NCBI RefSeq assembly: GCF_019801605.1
Contig: NZ_JAHVIT010000011.1
Coordinates: forward strand, 1-64,000
Direction of reading: 5' to 3'
DNA: 64,000 nt
Source: Maritimibacter alkaliphilus
Lineage (GTDB): Bacteria; Pseudomonadota; Alphaproteobacteria; Rhodobacterales; Rhodobacteraceae
A program made the translations under genes and the position numbers. The notes beneath the pieces were generated by a model. It made no database searches, was not told the origin of the DNA, and worked only from the letters and a program-made list of their open reading frames with translations. Position 1 is the first letter of the stretch. The number at the start of each line of letters is the position of its first letter. Below, piece by piece: positions 6,400-14,661 of this stretch.

Positions 6400-6729
6400 T
6401 TACAGCGGCATGTTCATGATGTCGCGGTAGGCATCCACCAGCTTGTCGCGCACCGCCACGGCGGTCTGCACGGTGGTTTCCAGCGCAACCGTCGCCTCGA
6501 CCACCTCCTGCGTGGTCACCTTGTCCTGCACCCCCGCCACGGCGACGCGATCCGCCTCGCGCGCGGTGCCGATCGCCTCTTCCGTCGCCTGCCGCAGCAT
6601 GTCGGCAAAACTGGTGCCGCCATCCTCCCCCGTGCCCTGGTCGAGCACGTTCTTCTCGGCATGGATCTGCAGCGAGTTCTGGTAGGCACCGCGGACCGCG
6701 GCAGAGGAAATCAGGGTCGTATCAGCCAT
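6400..6729 (-). CDS. fliE: MS-ring/rod adapter FliE
   Basis: FliE joins the rod to the MS ring and is an early export substrate. The 109-aa protein ends with the conserved region (VVEATVALETTVQTAVAVRD, then LVDAYRDIMNMPL). The N-terminal 45 residues are Gly/Thr-rich and variable. It sits six bases after flgC in the rod/export operon. Length is normal. Confidence 0.94.
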   Translation of the reverse strand: MADTTLISSAAVRGAYQNSLQIHAEKNVLDQGTGEDGGTSFADMLRQATEEAIGTAREADRVAVAGVQDKVTTQEVVEATVALETTVQTAVAVRDKLVDAYRDIMNMPL

Positions 6730-6735
6730 TCACGC

Positions 6736-7146
6736 TCACTCCAGCAGGTCGAGGATCTGGCTGCGCATCCGGCGCCCGGCCTCGAACATGTTCATATTCG
6801 CTTCGTAACTGCGCGCCGCCTCGCGCATGTTCGCCATCTCCATCACCGTGTTCACGTTGGAGATCTTGACGTAGCCGTTCTCGTCCGCCGCCGGATGCGA
6901 GGGATCGTAGCTCAGCTCGAATTCCGACATGTCGCGCCCGATGTCCGAGACATCGACCTTCGACACGCCGGTCTCGCGATCCACGGCCTCCTCGAAGGAG
7001 ATCGTCTTGCGGCGATAGGGCTCCGCCCCCGGCGAGGAGCCCAGCGAGTTGGCGTTGGCCACATTCTCGGAGACGACCTTCAGCCGCTCGCCCTGCGCGC
7101 GCATGCCCGAGGCCGCAACCGTGGTGATGGACTTCAATGGATCCAT
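6736..7146 (-). CDS. flgC: Proximal rod protein FlgC
   Basis: Rod protein of 136 aa. The N-terminal ASGMRAQGERLKVVSENVAN segment (about residues 12-31) and the C-terminal NMREAARSYEANMNMFEAGR are the paired helices that rod and hook proteins use to polymerise. It lies 10 bases after flgB in the same operon. Confidence 0.96.
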   Translation of the reverse strand: MDPLKSITTVAASGMRAQGERLKVVSENVANANSLGSSPGAEPYRRKTISFEEAVDRETGVSKVDVSDIGRDMSEFELSYDPSHPAADENGYVKISNVNTVMEMANMREAARSYEANMNMFEAGRRMRSQILDLLE

Positions 7147-7156
7147 GAAAAGCCTC

Positions 7157-7555
7157 TTAACGAATGCCGGTCACGGCCAGCGTCAGCAGGTCATGACCTT
7201 TCTTGTAAAGCTGGGCCGCCATCCGGTAGCTCTCGCTCACCTCGTTGGCCTTGATCGCCTGCTGCTCCAGCACGACGGTGTTGCCGTCCATGCCGGTCTC
7301 CCAGGCGCTCTCGTCCGCAGCGGTGCGGACCCCGCCGGAGGGCGCGGTGCCGGAAATGTGGTTCGCATTGGTCACGACGACGCCGGTCGACTGCCGCGTG
7401 CGGCCCATCGCTTCCTCGAACCCCACGACCTCGCGCGCCTTGTACTCAGGCGTGTTCGCGTTCGCGATGTTCTCGGAAATCACCGTCTGCCGCGCGGACA
7501 GCCACTTCATCCGCTCGGACGCGATCCGGAAAAATGACATATCCTGAAGTTTCAA
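7157..7555 (-). CDS. flgB: Proximal rod protein FlgB, probable TTG start
   Basis: First gene of the leftward rod/export operon. The protein contains the rod motif RQTVISENIANANTPEY (about residues 22-38). The longest frame starts with TTG at 7555, preceded by AAGGAAA at good spacing. The next ATG, at 7540, has only a poorly placed CAGG. Starting at the TTG gives the family-typical distance of about 15 residues to the RMKWLS segment, so TTG is preferred. FliF also appears to use TTG. 132 aa is normal for FlgB. Confidence 0.94.
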   Translation of the reverse strand: MKLQDMSFFRIASERMKWLSARQTVISENIANANTPEYKAREVVGFEEAMGRTRQSTGVVVTNANHISGTAPSGGVRTAADESAWETGMDGNTVVLEQQAIKANEVSESYRMAAQLYKKGHDLLTLAVTGIR

Positions 7556-7622
7556 AGGCGGTTTCCTTTTCGTTCAACCAAGGATAGCATGTATAAATCG
7601 GCTTTTCTACGGGATAAGGCTT
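7556..7622. promoter_or_regulatory. Divergent flgB / fliI promoter region
   Basis: Only 67 bp separate the flgB and fliI starts, so both promoters must lie here or reach into the genes. The middle is AT-rich (ATGTATAAATCGG near 7590, then GGGATAAGG just before fliI). I could not fix -35/-10 boxes with confidence, and the TATACTTGA motif seen at other flagellar promoters is absent. Confidence 0.4.
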
Positions 7623-8999
7623 ATGCAGACCCCGTTTTCTGAACTATCTACGTTTGCACGTAACCTTGATGCAACAAGAATAGTCGGTGAGGTCAAGGCC
7701 ATCCTCGGTCTTTCCCTCACCGTGACAGGACTTGAGCGCGTCATGGGCATCGGGCAGCGCTGCGTCGTGCAGGGCCGCCACGGCCCCGTGCTGGGCGAGG
7801 TCGTCGGCATCGACGAACAGGGCACCCATGTCCTGCCCTTCGGCACGTGGCACGGCGTCACCACCGGGAACGAGGTCACCTTCTCCCCGCAGGGCGAGAT
7901 GATCCGCCCGCACCACGCCTGGGTCGGCCGGGTGATCAACGCGCTCGGCGAACCGGTGGACCGCAAGGGCCCCCTGCACGAGGGCGACAATCCCCGCAAG
8001 GTCAAGGCCGGGCCCCCGCCCGCCTTCGATCGCCGCCGCGTCGGGCGCCGTCTCGAAACCGGCATCAAGATCTTCGACGTCTTCACGCCGCTCTGCCGTG
8101 GTCAGCGGATGGGCGTCTTCTCCGGCTCCGGCGTCGGGAAATCGACGCTCATGGCCATGCTGGCCCGCAACGCCGATGCCGACGTGATCGTCGTGGGGCT
8201 GATCGGCGAACGGGGCCGCGAGGTCATGGACTTCATCGAGGAAGACCTCGGCCCCGAGGGCATGGCGCGCTCCGTCGTCGTGGTCTCCACCGGGGACGAG
8301 CCGCCCCTGATGCGCCGCCAGGCCGCCTGGACGGCCACCGCCGTTGCCGAATACTTCCGCGACCAGGGCCTGCAGGTCCTGCTGCTCATGGACAGCGTCA
8401 CCCGCTTCGCCATGGCACAGCGCGAGATCGGCCTCTCGGGGGGCGAGCCGCCGACCTCCAAGGGCTACCCGCCCACGGTCTTCGCGGAACTGCCGCAGCT
8501 GATGGAACGCGCGGGCCCGGGGACCGAGGGCACCGGCGACATCACCGCGATCTACACCGTCCTCGTGGACGGCGACGACATGAACGAACCGGTGGCCGAC
8601 TCGGTGCGCGGGATCATGGACGGCCACGTCGTCCTCGCCCGCCGCATCGCCGAGCGGGGCCGCTTCCCCGCCGTGGACCTGCATCAGAGCATCTCGCGGA
8701 TGCTGCCCGACTGCCACTCCGAGGCCGAATACGCCGTGCTGCAGGCCGCGCGCCGGACGCTGGCGAAATACGCCGACATGGAAGAGCTGATCCGGCTTGG
8801 CGCCTACCGCAAGGGCTCCGACGCGGACATCGACGCGGCGATCAAGTTCTACGATCCGGTCGAAAGCTTCCTCAGCCAGCGGAAGCACCAGACGATGATC
8901 GCGGACGAGACCTTCGCGCATATCTACCAGCTGCTGCTGGACGCCGGAGTGAAGGTGGAACTGCCGCAACCCCAGACGGCGGTGCAACGGGCTGGGTGA
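7623..8999 (+). CDS. fliI: Flagellar export ATPase FliI
   Basis: Soluble ATPase that powers and orders protein delivery to the export gate, working with FliH (31.8 kb) and FliJ (62.3 kb). The 458-aa protein has a Walker A GSGVGKST at 168-175, the Walker B region LLMDSVTRFA, and the SGGEPPTSKGYPP segment diagnostic for the FliI/F1-beta family. It is transcribed alone, away from the flgB operon. Its downstream side is the 9-27 kb non-flagellar insert, so it is cut off from the rest of the flagellar genes. Confidence 0.97.
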   Translation: MQTPFSELSTFARNLDATRIVGEVKAILGLSLTVTGLERVMGIGQRCVVQGRHGPVLGEVVGIDEQGTHVLPFGTWHGVTTGNEVTFSPQGEMIRPHHAWVGRVINALGEPVDRKGPLHEGDNPRKVKAGPPPAFDRRRVGRRLETGIKIFDVFTPLCRGQRMGVFSGSGVGKSTLMAMLARNADADVIVVGLIGERGREVMDFIEEDLGPEGMARSVVVVSTGDEPPLMRRQAAWTATAVAEYFRDQGLQVLLLMDSVTRFAMAQREIGLSGGEPPTSKGYPPTVFAELPQLMERAGPGTEGTGDITAIYTVLVDGDDMNEPVADSVRGIMDGHVVLARRIAERGRFPAVDLHQSISRMLPDCHSEAEYAVLQAARRTLAKYADMEELIRLGAYRKGSDADIDAAIKFYDPVESFLSQRKHQTMIADETFAHIYQLLLDAGVKVELPQPQTAVQRAG

Positions 9000-9319: not shown

Positions 9320-10006
9320 TCAGCACACCACCCGCAAATCCGAGATCGTCGGGTCCACCCGCCGCAGCGCCACCCGCAGCCGTTCCCGCAGATGGGTCGT
9401 CACATAGCTTGCGATGAAGGACGACGGCGCGGCCAGGATCACCGTGCCGCCCTCGCGGTCCACCTCGGTCAGCCCGTGGAACCATGCGCCGTAGGTCGAG
9501 GCATCCTCGCCATGCAGGATCGCCTGCGCCTGTCCCCAGACCGATCCGCCCTCCTCGGGCACGACCTTGCGCAGCGGCACCACGTTCGTCGCCGTCTCCT
9601 CGCCCGCCGGGATCGAAGCATTCGGATCGAGCCGCTGGACGAAATCCTCGCCGATCAGCGCCCAGGCCGGGCGGGTGTCTTCCAGCATCCGCTCGAAGTC
9701 AATCCCATAGGTGCTGATCCGTCCGCGGGCGCCGCGGGTCTTCTGCACCAGCCAGCCTCGGCCGCGCAGCTTCGCCATCTCGCGTTTCACCGTACGCTCG
9801 TCCACGGACCACAGCCGGGCGATCTCCCGCTGGCCCATGGACAGCTCGTCGCGCTGCCAGTTGTAGCGCGTGGTGATCAGCGCCATCATCCGCATGATCT
9901 GTCTCTGCGCGACCTTGTCCTGCGACAGGCCAAGCGCCATCAGGGCAGATAGGATATCGTATTTACGCGAGGCCGCTGCACGACCAGTCGCTCGGGCAAG
10001 TTGCAT
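9320..10006 (-). CDS. repA: DnaA-like plasmid replication initiator
   Basis: Replicase of the DnaA-like plasmid class described in Rhodobacterales. The 228-aa protein has an N-terminal winged-helix part (about 30-105, with SVDERTVKREMAKLRGRGWL as the probable recognition region). It ends with a segment (about 158-228) that resembles DnaA domain I: W-x(n)-L, then TYGAWFHGLTEVDREGG, then APSSFIASYV. There is no AAA+ ATPase domain, so it is not chromosomal DnaA. It faces away from parAB across a 550-bp candidate origin. This gene is the main reason for calling the window extrachromosomal; the compatibility subgroup cannot be told by eye. Confidence 0.85.
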   Translation of the reverse strand: MQLARATGRAAASRKYDILSALMALGLSQDKVAQRQIMRMMALITTRYNWQRDELSMGQREIARLWSVDERTVKREMAKLRGRGWLVQKTRGARGRISTYGIDFERMLEDTRPAWALIGEDFVQRLDPNASIPAGEETATNVVPLRKVVPEEGGSVWGQAQAILHGEDASTYGAWFHGLTEVDREGGTVILAAPSSFIASYVTTHLRERLRVALRRVDPTISDLRVVC

Positions 10007-10558
10007 CCCGCGTCTCCTGTCCCGGTGATCCTCGTCCGAGGATGCGTCGGTGATGTTTCGTGTTGCGCCGGGAAGGAAGGGTCCCTGTCAGGGAAGACTG
10101 CCCGGGTCTGTGGCCTCTGATCGGGGAGAGTTTTCTGCGAACTCGACGCTAATTCCGATCATGCATCTATTTGCGTCCGATTGGCTGATCCTGTCAAGCG
10201 AGCAACTCGCCCTTCCCAGAACCATTTCGAAGAAATCGGTATCAATTGGTATAGGGTGACAGCCTATGTGTCCCCTATTCAGGCACTTTTGTCCCCCAAT
10301 ATGCAGCAGAGGCCCCCGTGGTGTCCCCCTAGATCTGGGGTCGCCCCCAAGGTCCGACTCACAGATTCGGAGGGAATCACCGGGAATCACTCACGATTCG
10401 ATTCGCCTTGCTGCACAGGGGTTGAGGGGCCCTGCCCTTCCCTGCGGGGAAGATCTCACAGATCCCGATCCGGGGGAACTTCCCTTTTGCGTTTTTCGGG
10501 AAATCAGCGTAATTCGAAAGCGAGCATTAATTTACGTCCTGATAAACAGAGGCCGAGC
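10007..10558. other. Candidate origin and repA/parA control region
   Basis: This 552-bp gap lies between divergent repA and parA and is AT-richer than its flanks. It holds short phased repeats: GGTAT at 10239 and 10249; TGTCCCC at 10269, 10290 and 10322; GGGAATCAC at 10372 and 10382. It also holds one variant of the 16-bp palindrome (10437-10452). No canonical DnaA box (TTATNCACA) was found here. Origin function is inferred from position; longer open frames across it have no family resemblance. Confidence 0.55.
10437..10452. other. Candidate parS palindrome, copy 1 (variant)
   Basis: CTTCCCTGCGGGGAAG, one mismatch from the perfect palindrome CTTCCCCGCGGGGAAG that recurs through the parAB region. 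It lies 107 bp upstream of parA. Confidence 0.55.
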
Positions 10559-11854
10559 ATGTACACCCACGAAGACCTCGCACAGCTGCAGGCGCAGTCC
10601 CTCAAGATGCAGGGCTGGATCCGCCAGCAGACCTTCAGCCCCGAGAGCCGCAAGACCCTGCGCCGCTTCTCCTCCTGGGAGGTGTCCGAGCTGATCCTGC
10701 GCATCAACCAGTCGACCTTCCGCGGCCGGCTCGCCGCCGATCCCTCCCTGCCCTCCGGCGAGGTCGAGGCCGAGGGCCGGCAGCGCTGGTACACGCTCGA
10801 AGAGATCAACGAGCTGCGCCGCCGCATGAAGATCAACCGCAAGAGCCTGATGCCGCCCCGCCCCGCCGGCAAGCGCGCGTTCCGCGCCGCGGTCGCCAAC
10901 TTCAAGGGCGGCGCCGGCAAGTCCACCGTCGCGCTGCACTTCGCTCATGCCGCAGCCCTCGACGGCTACCGCGTGCTGCTGGTGGACTTCGACCCGCAGG
11001 CCACGCTCTCCCACTCCATGGGTCTCACCGACGTGGCCGAGGATTACACCGTCTGGGGCATCATGGCCCGCGACCTGATCCGCGAGACCGACCGCCAGAA
11101 CGCGGCCCTCGTCGGGGCCGAGAGTGGCACCGCCCTGCCCGCCCGCAAGATCCCCGCCTCGATCCGCGACATGGGTCTCGACGAGCTGCGCCACCACGAC
11201 TTCATCAAGCAGACCTCCTGGTCCACGATCGACATCATCCCTTCCTGCGCCAACGCCGCCTTCGTCGAGTTCGCCTCGGCCCAGTACCGGCACCTGAACC
11301 CGGAGTGGACCTTCTTCGCCGCCGTGTCGCGCTACCTCGATGGCCTCGGCGACGACGACTATGACCTCATCATCTTCGACTGCCCGCCGGCCATCGGCTA
11401 CCAGTCCATGAACGCGGTCTTCGCCGCCGACGCGCTCTACATCCCCTCCGGCCCGGGCTACTGGGAATACGACAGTACCACCTCCTTCATCGGCCAGCTC
11501 TCCGAGGCGCTCGAGGACCTCGCCCATGGCTTCGGCGAAAACTTCCCCGCGGGGAAGATCGCCCTGCCCAAGGCCTTCGCCGACATCCGCTTCCTGATGA
11601 CGCGCTACGAGCCCGGCAACGACCTGCACCGCGCGATGCTGGAGGCCTTCCGCAAGGTCTTCGGTGATCATGTGACGCAGAACCCGATCGAGATGACCCG
11701 CGCCGTCGAGCAGTCCGGCCGCTTCCTCAGCTCGGTCTACGAGATCGACTACCGCGACATGACCCGCGAAACATGGCGCCGCGCCCGGGAGAGTTTCGAC
11801 CGTGCCTATGGCGAGTTCCGCGACAACATCATCGCCAACTGGGACAAGGTCTGA
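10559..11854 (+). CDS. parA: Plasmid partition ATPase ParA
   Basis: ParA-type Walker ATPase that positions and segregates the replicon together with ParB. The open frame begins far upstream in the control region, but the ATG at 10559 follows AGAGG and gives a normal 431-aa protein. Residues 77-92 (RWYTLEEINELRRRM) look like a helix-turn-helix, as in plasmid ParAs that also repress their own operon. The deviant Walker A is KGGAGKST (116-123), and DFDPQATLS follows. The palindrome at 11542-11557 lies inside the gene and encodes FPAGK. parB follows 11 bases later. Confidence 0.95.
   Translation: MYTHEDLAQLQAQSLKMQGWIRQQTFSPESRKTLRRFSSWEVSELILRINQSTFRGRLAADPSLPSGEVEAEGRQRWYTLEEINELRRRMKINRKSLMPPRPAGKRAFRAAVANFKGGAGKSTVALHFAHAAALDGYRVLLVDFDPQATLSHSMGLTDVAEDYTVWGIMARDLIRETDRQNAALVGAESGTALPARKIPASIRDMGLDELRHHDFIKQTSWSTIDIIPSCANAAFVEFASAQYRHLNPEWTFFAAVSRYLDGLGDDDYDLIIFDCPPAIGYQSMNAVFAADALYIPSGPGYWEYDSTTSFIGQLSEALEDLAHGFGENFPAGKIALPKAFADIRFLMTRYEPGNDLHRAMLEAFRKVFGDHVTQNPIEMTRAVEQSGRFLSSVYEIDYRDMTRETWRRARESFDRAYGEFRDNIIANWDKV
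11542..11557. other. Candidate parS palindrome, copy 2 (inside parA)
   Basis: Perfect 16-bp palindrome CTTCCCCGCGGGGAAG within the parA coding sequence. Confidence 0.65.
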
Positions 11855-11865
11855 AGGAGAGAGCC

Positions 11866-13056
11866 ATGAGCCGCAAACGCCGCATCTTCGACATCTCCAT
11901 GCCGGTGGAGGACAGCACCCCCTCCCCCGCGCCCGCCCCTGAACCGGCCCCTGCCCCCGAACCGGAGGCCAAGGCCGAGCCGGATCCGCAGACCTTCCCC
12001 GCGGGGAAGGACGCCCCCGCTGAGGCCCCCCGCGCCCCCCGGCGCGGCCCCATGGCCACGGCCATCGGCGAGACCGCCGACAGCCTGCGCGAGCGCCGCG
12101 AGGTCGAGGCCCGGATCCGTGCCGAGAACGATCGCCTCGCCCATGAGCACGTCCGCCTCAAGCGTCTCGGCCTCGTGGTCGACCTGCTGCCGCTGGATGC
12201 GATCCACACCTCCAAGCTGGTCCGCGACCGTGCCGCCGGGCCGGACGAGGAACTGGGCGAGCTGCGCGACTCGATCCGCGCCCTCGGCCTCTCGAACCCG
12301 ATCCGGGTCGAGGAGGCGGAGGACGGCCGTTACGAACTGATTCAAGGCTTCCGCCGTCTCAGCGCCTACCGCGCCCTGCTGGAGGAAACCGGCGACGAAA
12401 GCTACGCCACGATCCCCGCCGCGATCACGCCGAAGGGCGAGGGGCTCGACGCGCTCTATCGCCGGATGGTGGACGAGAACCTCGTGCGCAAGGACATCTC
12501 CTTTGCCGAGATGGCGCAGCTGGCGATCGACTATGCCGCCGACCCCGAGACCGCCACCAGCGACGCCGACAAGGCCGTGGCCGAGCTCTTCAAGTCCGCC
12601 GGCTACCAGAAGCGCAGCTACATCCGGAGCTTCATCCGGGTGATCGCGGCCATCGGTCCGCAGCTGCAATTCGCGCCTGAAATTCCCCGCGCCCTCGGCC
12701 TCGCGCTCGCCGCGCGGCTGGACGAGGTCGAAGGGCTGTCGGGCGCCATCACCGAGGCACTCGGCCCGCTCGACAACCGGTCGGTCAAGGAGGAGCTGGA
12801 GGTGCTGCGCCGCTTCGCCGGGCTGACCGCGCCCGTTGAGGGCCATGTGCCGCCCGCCCGTGCCGGGGGCGCCACGCCCAAACCCGCGGCCTCGGGCAAG
12901 GCCAAGACCAGCTTCCAGTTCGACCGCCGCGAGGGCCGGGCGAAATGCACCGCCGCCAACGGGCGGCTGGAGCTGCGGCTGGACCGGGACTTCTCCACCA
13001 TCGACCGGCGCAAGCTGGAACAGGCGGTGCGCAAGATGCTCGACCAGCTCGACTGA
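11866..13056 (+). CDS. parB: Plasmid partition protein ParB
   Basis: Centromere-binding partner of ParA. The ATG at 11866 follows GAAGGAGAGAGCC and gives 396 aa. Residues 15-60 are Pro/Ala/Glu-rich and variable. The ParB/Srx-type CTP-binding core is at about 100-190 (IRALGLSNPIRVEE, then ELIQGFRRLSAYRAL), and the helix-turn-helix part follows (MAQLAIDYA, SYIRSFIRVIAAIGP). The palindrome at 11994-12009 lies inside the gene, in the variable region, and again encodes FPAGK. The operon ends at the terminator at 13111. Confidence 0.95.
   Translation: MSRKRRIFDISMPVEDSTPSPAPAPEPAPAPEPEAKAEPDPQTFPAGKDAPAEAPRAPRRGPMATAIGETADSLRERREVEARIRAENDRLAHEHVRLKRLGLVVDLLPLDAIHTSKLVRDRAAGPDEELGELRDSIRALGLSNPIRVEEAEDGRYELIQGFRRLSAYRALLEETGDESYATIPAAITPKGEGLDALYRRMVDENLVRKDISFAEMAQLAIDYAADPETATSDADKAVAELFKSAGYQKRSYIRSFIRVIAAIGPQLQFAPEIPRALGLALAARLDEVEGLSGAITEALGPLDNRSVKEELEVLRRFAGLTAPVEGHVPPARAGGATPKPAASGKAKTSFQFDRREGRAKCTAANGRLELRLDRDFSTIDRRKLEQAVRKMLDQLD
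11994..12009. other. Candidate parS palindrome, copy 3 (inside parB)
   Basis: Perfect CTTCCCCGCGGGGAAG inside the variable 5' part of parB, with palindrome-extending bases (ACC on the left, G on the right). Confidence 0.65.
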
Positions 13057-13060
13057 GCGT

Positions 13061-13076
13061 CTTCCCCGCGGGGAAG
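13061..13076. other. Candidate parS palindrome, copy 4
   Basis: Perfect CTTCCCCGCGGGGAAG, beginning five bases after the parB stop. Confidence 0.65.
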
Positions 13077-13110
13077 ATCGGCGGTCAAATAGACCCTGAT
13101 AAGGGCTTTA

Positions 13111-13142
13111 GAGACCCCTCCGGCGCGGAGGGGTCTCTTTCG
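13111..13142 (+). terminator. Rho-independent terminator of parAB
   Basis: A 12-bp perfect stem (13111-13122 with 13126-13137, GAGACCCCTCCG and its complement) with a 3-base loop is followed by TTTCGTTC. It lies about 55 bases after parB. Confidence 0.85.
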
Positions 13143-13227
13143 TTCGGGGCGCCGGGCTGAGGCGGGAGGCCCTCGCGGCTGCGGAGAGCGCTCTTGCGTT
13201 TGAGGCACCCGACCCGGCCGGGAAGAC

Positions 13228-13243
13228 CTTCCCCACGGGGAAG
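13228..13243. other. Candidate parS palindrome, copy 5 (variant)
   Basis: CTTCCCCACGGGGAAG, one central mismatch from the consensus. It is flanked by GAC on the left and GTT on the right, so the extended arm is mostly kept. Confidence 0.6.
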
Positions 13244-13381
13244 GTTCCGGCCGGCTGGGGCCTCGGGCTGGGGGTCGGTGAGCCGACGTCGGCGCCCGAA
13301 AGGGGCGACAGCCGGGGGCCGTGCCATGCAGGGTGCGGTCCCTTCGGTTGGCGAGACAGCACCCTGCGTCGCTGCTTCCCC

Positions 13382-13403
13382 GACCTTCCCCGCGGGGAAG
13401 GTC
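13382..13403. other. Candidate parS palindrome, copy 6 (22-bp perfect)
   Basis: The 16-bp core CTTCCCCGCGGGGAAG (13385-13400) is extended by GAC on the left and GTC on the right, making a perfect 22-bp inverted repeat. This is the longest copy of the family. Confidence 0.7.
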
Positions 13404-13448
13404 AGCCCCGGGGATGGCGGGCGCTTAACATAATACGAATCGTGGGCT

Positions 13449-14069
13449 TCAGGGCGATCCCGGCGCCCGGGGCACCTGCCAGCCGCGCCAGTGGCTGACG
13501 ATCCGGAACAGCGCGCAGAGCAACACGCCCGCAACGCTGGTCCAGAAGTCCGGCAGGTCCAGCGCCCGGCCCACCACGACGACCCCCGCGCCCAGCAGGG
13601 CTGCGAGGGCATAGATGTCCTCGCGCAGCACCCGGGGCACCTCGGTCACGAGCACATCGCGCAGGGCGCCGCCGCCCACCGCCGCCACCACGCCGAGCAG
13701 CATCGCCGACAGCGGATCGAGCCCGTAGAGCAGCGCCTTGCGGCAGCTGGCCACGGCAAAGAGCCCGAGGCCGAGCGCGTCGAGCACCATGACGGGCCGG
13801 CGCATCTTCTCGATCAGCCGGTGCCCGAAGAAGACCACCACGGCCGAGGCGAGCGCGGTGTAGAGGTAGCGCGTGTCATGCAGCGCCGCCGGCGGCGTGG
13901 CGCCCAGCATCAGGTCGCGCACCATGCCGCCCGCCAGTGCGGTGCAGATCGCCAGCACCGCGATGCCGAACAGGTCGAGCTGCCGGCGCACGGCAAGCAT
14001 CGCGCCCGAGAGCCCGAAGACGAAAGTGCCGAGGAGGTCGAGCGAGAGCCCGACGGGAATGCTGCTCAT
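13449..14069 (-). CDS. TRIC-type (UPF0126) membrane channel protein
   Basis: Integral membrane protein of 206 aa with about seven hydrophobic segments. It has the internal duplication typical of the bacterial TRIC/YadS family: GGMVRDLMLG (about 47-56) and GGALRDVLV (about 131-139) are the paired Gly-rich pore motifs. Family members conduct monovalent cations; substrates in bacteria are not settled. It stands alone between the partition module and a repeat-rich gap. Confidence 0.85.
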   Translation of the reverse strand: MSSIPVGLSLDLLGTFVFGLSGAMLAVRRQLDLFGIAVLAICTALAGGMVRDLMLGATPPAALHDTRYLYTALASAVVVFFGHRLIEKMRRPVMVLDALGLGLFAVASCRKALLYGLDPLSAMLLGVVAAVGGGALRDVLVTEVPRVLREDIYALAALLGAGVVVVGRALDLPDFWTSVAGVLLCALFRIVSHWRGWQVPRAPGSP

Positions 14070-14566: not shown

Positions 14567-14661
14567 CTCAGCTCTCAGCTCTCAGCTCTCAGCTCTCAGC
14601 TCTCAGCTCTCAGCTCTCAGCTCTCAGCTCTCAGCTCTCAGCTCTCAGCTCTCAGCTCTCA
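14567..14661. repeat. Heptanucleotide tandem repeat (CTCAGCT)n
   Basis: Thirteen perfect copies of CTCAGCT (14567-14657) plus a partial CTCA. A 7-base unit shifts frame at each copy, so it cannot be selected coding sequence. No copy has diverged, which suggests recent expansion by slippage. It lies 48 bases past the stop of the phosphoesterase gene, in its probable 3' untranslated region. Confidence 0.95.

Follow-up and report, generated by a model that had tools for sequence, protein, structure and literature searches.

A likely dispersed centromere written into the parAB partition genes of a DnaA-like Rhodobacterales replicon

What is the role of six nearly identical palindromes that lie around, and partly inside, the genes of a plasmid partition operon? 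The question is raised by the first 64,000 nucleotides of contig NZ_JAHVIT010000011.1 of Maritimibacter alkaliphilus (GCF_019801605.1), referred to here as the window, which belong to contig C11 (64,411 bp) of the host genome G000. The palindromes span the parAB operon next to a divergent gene for a DnaA-like replicase, and a reading of the letters alone (the sequence-only reading) had proposed them as a likely centromere. With a probability of roughly 0.93, these palindromes serve as the dispersed centromere (parS) in a ParABS system on a DnaA-like Rhodobacterales replicon. This reading is supported because the sites are confined to parAB, their addresses recur in related replicons, the DNA is constrained inside the genes and the palindrome class associates with residues of ParB, each of which is directly observed.

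The 16-mer CTTCCCCGCGGGGAAG occurs perfectly at positions 11542, 11994, 13061 and 13385 and with one mismatch at 10437 and 13228; a renewed scan of the window leaves all six positions and mismatch counts of the sequence-only reading as they were. The copy at 13385 extends to the 22-bp inverted repeat GACCTTCCCCGCGGGGAAGGTC, and the two in-gene copies force the peptide FPAGK at residues 329 to 333 of ParA and 44 to 48 of ParB; a 22-bp repeat at one copy and the peptide FPAGK had both been claimed. With up to three mismatches allowed, the window contains eight matches, compared to a mean of 1.09 and a largest value of 5 in 100 dinucleotide shuffles. Across the whole genome (4,911,259 bases, 20 contigs), the six parAB copies are the sole copies at up to one mismatch, and the reversed-pattern control yields no match at the same threshold. 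The impression that the word occurs nowhere else thus holds over 4.91 Mb, and the 16-mer is not spread evenly over the genome.

The same cluster is found in relatives. A scan of 60 genomes, including that of the window, at up to one mismatch gives matches in nine, with clusters in seven of them: six of the 22 genomes of the genus (the window's own included) and G031 from another genus. A lone match in G018 and another in G025 are background, since eight of the 60 genomes also give one or two matches to the reversed control. Relatives of ParB were taken from 80 loci and four plasmid regions and then from 16 plasmid modules and 60 stretches of family genomes, in which palindrome families were sought without the known word. 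The module set was reduced from 161 inputs to 159 (L101 and L217 lack a ParA and ParB pair) and, by removal of five with identical parB, to 154 distinct modules, among which near-copies such as the window and L024 are kept. These comprise 104 modules of class I (TTCCCCNNGGGGAA, arm TTCCCC), to which the window belongs, 24 of class II (GTCCCCNNGGGGAC, arm GTCCCC), 14 of class III (TTACCCNNGGGTAA, arm TTACCC) and 3 of class IV (TTATCCNNGGATAA, arm TTATCC), along with 7 outgroup modules and 2 outside the classes. The scripted assignment had given 103, 23, 14 and 3 modules for the four classes, 7 outgroup modules set by hand, 3 without a class and 1 other; inspection of the sites moved L028 to class I and L207 to class II by hand and left L096 and L166 outside.

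At up to two mismatches, most relatives carry sites at parA codon 64, at parA codon 327/328, at about parB codons 17 to 44 and after the parB stop codon, mostly 4 to 31 nt away, with a further site ∼100 to 140 nt 5' of parA in a subset. The counts by class allow one arm mismatch and take parA codons 322 to 334 as the codon-328 address; counts of downstream sites are lower bounds, some loci ending soon after parB. The codon-328 site is the most constant, being present in 135 of the 145 modules with an assignable palindrome, the window included, so that the in-gene parA position remarked on by the sequence-only reading is shared by related replicons. It is used by all four symmetric palindrome classes (95/104, 23/24, 14/14 and 3/3 for classes I to IV). 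The corresponding numbers are 76/104, 0/24, 3/14 and 0/3 for the codon-64 site and 36/104, 24/24, 11/14 and 2/3 for a site within 250 nt 5' of parA. The codon-64 palindrome has decayed in the window, L024, L026 and L008, where its LPSGE or LPGGE peptide is still encoded. Modules contain 2 to 19 copies across the four classes. The plasmids L106 (Leisingera) and L109 (Alloyangia) have 16 and 19 class II copies in ∼4.6 kb, many of them arrayed 3' of parB at a spacing of ∼50 to 100 bp. The remoter DnaA-like replicons L113 to L115 have a short array 3' of parB only.

A generic dispersed palindrome (a repetitive extragenic palindromic element, a terminator or a restriction site) that came to lie here by accident is hardly credible in light of this distribution. 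Single perfect copies on three contigs of the congener G001, besides the contig of its cluster, are what such an element might leave, but all six G000 copies lie at parAB, the addresses in relatives are fixed while the classes change, and the window has no Rfam match at the gathering threshold. Chance or a generic repeat is likewise rejected on the shuffles, the genome-wide confinement and the recurring addresses, and an RNA element is rejected on the missing Rfam match. The three G001 copies (L221 to L223) are above composition expectation by our own estimate, with no clear gene link seen.

Constraint on the DNA itself was measured as excess synonymous identity in five-codon windows, using 82 ParA and 82 ParB rows from 85 loci. 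The top values are found at codons 328 to 332 (z 4.3) and 63 to 67 (z 3.96) of 408 in parA and at codons 43 to 47 (z 5.38) of 318 in parB. The two parA addresses are the same DNA in two frames, giving LPxGE at codon 64 and FPA/TGK at codon 328. Compared to permutation of synonymous codons, the modules contain 282 in-gene sites against 48 (maximum of 56) in class I, 44 against 6.35 in class II, 27 against 0.2 in class III and 5 against 0.15 in class IV. It is therefore very improbable that the in-gene palindromes simply follow from conservation of the peptides FPAGK and LPxGE together with codon bias: nowhere else in the genes are synonymous positions under such constraint as at the sites, the site counts of all modules taken together far surpass the permutation null, one DNA word is read in two frames and further copies are intergenic. 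In the ParB alignment, FPAGK 44 to 48 hardly varies, and an LPxGE-type peptide outlasts the decayed codon-64 palindrome of the window, both of which would suit such a by-product; the ParB peptide lies within a predicted disordered stretch, with a predicted local distance difference test (pLDDT) score below 50 at residues 34 to 58. The parA peptide, on the other hand, shifts with the class. At codon 328, class I has FPTGK (50 modules), FPAGK (40), FPAGN (4) and FPVGK (1), class II has VPAGT (23/23), class III has LPTGK (8), LPAGK (2), LSAGK (2), LPMGK (1) and LPTGN (1), and class IV has LSADK (3/3). An AlphaFold model of ParA for residues 64 and 328 is unusable, with a mean pLDDT of 55.9 and values below 50 at 66 to 80 and 318 to 351.

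The palindrome class goes together with two residues of ParB. Arginine at position 247 is present in 24/24 modules of class II, 1/104 of class I (L220) and 0/17 of classes III and IV, and glutamine at position 248 is present in 101/104 of class I, 24/24 of class II and 0/17 of classes III and IV. L207, at first uncalled, combines the class II residues with GTCCCC sites. In the ParB model (mean pLDDT of 72.9 and predicted template modeling score of 0.45), a helix at 234 to 241 is followed by one at 247 to 266, the second helix of the helix-turn-helix, with both residues at its start; among known structures, the model matches ParB, Noc-DNA and KorB, with a weak match to SopB-DNA. The link between palindrome class and residues 247/248 at the start of this predicted recognition helix is suggestive. 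In a quick tree built without columns 247 and 248, at least seven class changes are seen, and supported branches force fewer. In the ParB of Caulobacter, K171, S172 and R173 contact parS (PMC7383237); a by-eye alignment, anchored on the glycine of the turn, would place residues 247/248 at K171/S172.

The association with ParB also bears on the question of whether another protein, the DnaA-like replicase (with iteron-like origin sites) or the N-terminal part of ParA, binds the palindromes in place of ParB. The replicase gene adjoins, one site is located within the probable origin region, and N-terminal extensions of ParA proteins of such size bind operators in other plasmids. Even so, this explanation is unlikely, as the class associates with residues of the predicted recognition helix of ParB. 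Moreover, L116 (NC_018287.1; RepB-I in PMC4148982) and L118 ("replication initiation protein") have other palindromes 5' of parA and inside parB, in L118 also just 3' of parB. In L009, whose replicase annotation is only 94 amino acids long and whose incomplete gene table lists no parA, the sites in and after parB persist.

Several observations weigh against the centromere reading or its link to ParB. Class I sites are combined with R247 in L220 and with S248 in L009, L028 and L043; each of the residues 247 and 248 is backed by one supported independent pair, and no sign test is significant. The window alone is weak in the permutation test, with two observed sites compared to zero to two permuted ones. 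Foreign-class sites with perfect arms number 1, 0, 1 and 2 in classes I to IV, compared to 373, 122, 40 and 10 own-class sites, a purity that is partly built in because the classes were called from the same modules. The codon-328 site is counted missing in 10/145 modules, of which L065, cut by a contig end, has one in a separate scan at up to two mismatches. L096 (Donghicola mangrovi) possesses a class-I-like ParB and no site in the module, with two one-mismatch copies 1.7 and 4.7 kb downstream. The stray copies of G001 described above belong here as well, and the flanks of class II modules hold 17 sites in 53 kb, 0.318 per kb compared to 1.219 per kb near the module.

Membership of the ParB CTPase family and the position of the sites suggest how the centromere would work. 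A dimer of the parB product would bind each palindrome through its helix-turn-helix, with TTCCCCNNGGGGAA as the putative functional core, then load as a clamp and spread. ParB would gather the sites into a single partition complex, which the ParA ATPase would position. Two of the sites lie within parA and parB, and the one in parA occupies a codon address that is shared by relatives. The site 5' of parA may also allow repression of the operon by ParB; a sigma-70 scan of 10000 to 13450 gives no promoter-like site, so this autoregulation is still to be read from family and position. The sequence-only reading had called in-gene sites unusual. The embedding itself stands and the unusualness is weaker, since 144/145 modules have a site inside the parA-parB span and the parS sites of Pseudomonas aeruginosa appear to lie mostly in coding sequence (PMC4368675).

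A further proposal, to which we would give even odds, concerns the history of these sites. The partition genes would carry the centromere at fixed codons, where it would stay through switches of ParB specificity, with the codon-328 site rewritten symmetrically in each of the four classes and the ParA peptide following, in step with ParB residues 247/248. L220, which has class I sites and whose parA still holds a relic of class II, and L166, with a class III site at codon 64 and a class IV site at codon 328, may be intermediates between classes and would then be caught in mid-switch. If the proposal is true, embedding would couple the centromere to the partition proteins, and the two would be inherited as a unit that is hard for recombination to split.

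The surrounding genes are consistent with this assignment (Table 1). A Walker ATPase gene, a ParB with a CTPase-type N-domain and helix-turn-helix, and clustered sites at the operon are features of type I (ParA ATPase) ParABS systems, and the DnaA-like replicase adjoining parAB is a trait of DnaA-like plasmids of Rhodobacterales. The earlier guess of a DnaA-like replicon is borne out by the DnaA_N match.

Table 1. Coordinates of the partition module and its palindromes in the window
Feature	Position	Strand	Description
DnaA-like plasmid replicase, 228 amino acids	9320..10006	-	Pfam DnaA_N, E 7.4e-6, domain at C-terminal end; divergent from parA
rep-parA intergenic region	10007..10558		contains site 1 and six GANTC motifs (10356-10404)
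parS-like site 1	10437..10452		CTTCCCTGCGGGGAAG; 122 nt 5' of parA; one mismatch
parA, 431 amino acids	10559..11854	+	Walker-type partition ATPase of RepA/SopA type; Pfam AAA_31 6e-26
decayed site, parA codon 64	10748..10763		CTGCCCTCCGGCGAGG; overlooked in the sequence-only reading
parS-like site 2	11542..11557		within parA, codon-328 address; codes FPAGK, residues 329-333
parB, 396 amino acids	11866..13056	+	Pfam ParB_N 7.4e-7; predicted ParB CTPase-type fold and helix-turn-helix; N-terminus predicted disordered
parS-like site 3	11994..12009		within parB, codons 43-48; codes FPAGK, residues 44-48
parS-like site 4	13061..13076		four bases 3' of parB stop codon
parS-like site 5	13228..13243		CTTCCCCACGGGGAAG; centre alone differs
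parS-like site 6	13382..13403		GACCTTCCCCGCGGGGAAGGTC, perfect 22-bp palindrome; 16-mer core 13385-13400

Relatives of the replicase on plasmids are annotated as "DnaA N-terminal domain-containing protein", and a homologue is found in 292 of 72,556 PLSDB plasmids at E values up to 1e-5. The parA product further matches CbiA (2.2e-17), the NCBIfam partition_RepA model (3.5e-64) and the SopA model, the latter two below cut-off, as well as ParA/Soj chains in the PDB. Membership in RepABC is rejected, the RP-C family (PF03428) matches of G000 being located on C10, C4 and C6 and none on C11. The nearest ParB found is that of Pseudooceanicola nanhaiensis DP2Y115-3, with 97% identity, and C11 is a contig of Pseudooceanicola type. 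No end overlap indicates circularity, as the first 20 to 200 bases of C11 are absent from its last 1,512 bases. By its position, the rep-parA intergenic region is the probable origin and promoter region. GANTC is the methylation word of CcrM, and the six copies in 49 bp at 10356 to 10404 are the densest cluster of the 65 in the window; over 142 modules, the 600 bp 5' of parA average 2.6 to 2.9 copies, compared to 0.7 to 1.0 per 600 bp in parAB, base composition not being controlled. A GC-rich hairpin 3' of parB (13110 to 13139, AGAGACCCCTCC..GGAGGGGTCTCT), seen by eye and unlisted by the terminator scan, is a likely terminator. At 14567 to 14661, the heptamer CTCAGCT is repeated in 13.6 perfect copies with several open frames, which give a SALSSQL-type peptide. 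At 6400 to 8999, fliE, two rod-protein genes, which we take to be flgC/flgB-like, and a gene for a FliI-type ATPase adjoin the replication module and suggest that flagellar genes are carried on the C11 replicon. Contigs C2, C4, C5, C6, C9 and C10 of G000 contain eight more ParB_N matches and four RepC matches, probably from several other co-resident replicons of the ParABS type or RepABC. Two members of the ParB family, L187 (G283:C1, a contig of 5.56 Mb) and L217 (G079:C1, 4.15 Mb), are possibly integrated in a chromosome.

Close members of this ParB family do not occur together in the family sample: none of its 295 genomes has two and 75 have one (E 1e-60 cut, up to six candidates scored per genome), compared to ∼10 genomes with two expected from independent occurrence by our arithmetic, which ignores kinship. 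Mutual incompatibility of the replicons would produce such a pattern, and the palindrome class is a simple DNA marker by which these replicons can be sorted. Together with the candidate specificity residues and two apparent intermediates, the four classes that share one address form a natural series, which makes the joint change of a DNA-binding protein and several scattered sites testable.

The kind of element is known, since palindromic partition anchors are established in RepABC plasmids of the Rhodobacterales and in-gene parS sites are not rare. What the window itself holds is a low-copy plasmid centromere of an ordinary kind; of more interest is that the in-gene address stays fixed while the class changes. 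In a 2011 paper in Mol Biol Evol, Petersen et al. reportedly proposed conserved palindromes of DnaA-like Rhodobacterales plasmids as partition anchors, and those plasmids share the DnaA-like replicase and a parAB module with palindromes. Earlier publication of the present palindromes is quite possible; the four classes, the fixed codon addresses and the link to ParB residues come from this analysis. The literature searched, with few subscription journals among it, gives no match to the exact 16-mer and no description of these palindromes or fixed codon addresses; among the matches listed, GTCCCCGCGGGGAC has no occurrence and TTCCCCGCGGGGAA has one, in a plant drought paper. L106 (285 kb), taken as the Leisingera methylohalidivorans plasmid termed DnaA-like I (PMC3910702), contains class II palindromes, compared to class I in the window.

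In RepABC plasmids of Rhodobacteraceae, the partition anchors bound by RepB are short palindromes that are specific to a group, and one reciprocal base exchange divides two of their compatibility groups (PMC5613091). Those anchors are described as 14-mers, usually in two adjacent copies 3' of repC (PMC5613091), whereas the modules described here contain 2 to 19 copies, several of them in parA and parB, and C11 has no repC. On the chromosome of P. aeruginosa, 9 of 10 parS sites most likely lie in coding sequences (PMC4368675). These are palindromic ParB sites, like the putative ones of the present modules; they are chromosomal, and the accessible part of that source reports no fixed parA or parB codons. 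In ParB and Noc, the preference for single palindrome bases is determined by a small number of residues in the DNA-binding domain (PMC7383237); compared to that specificity work, the present set is a natural series of plasmid ParB proteins.

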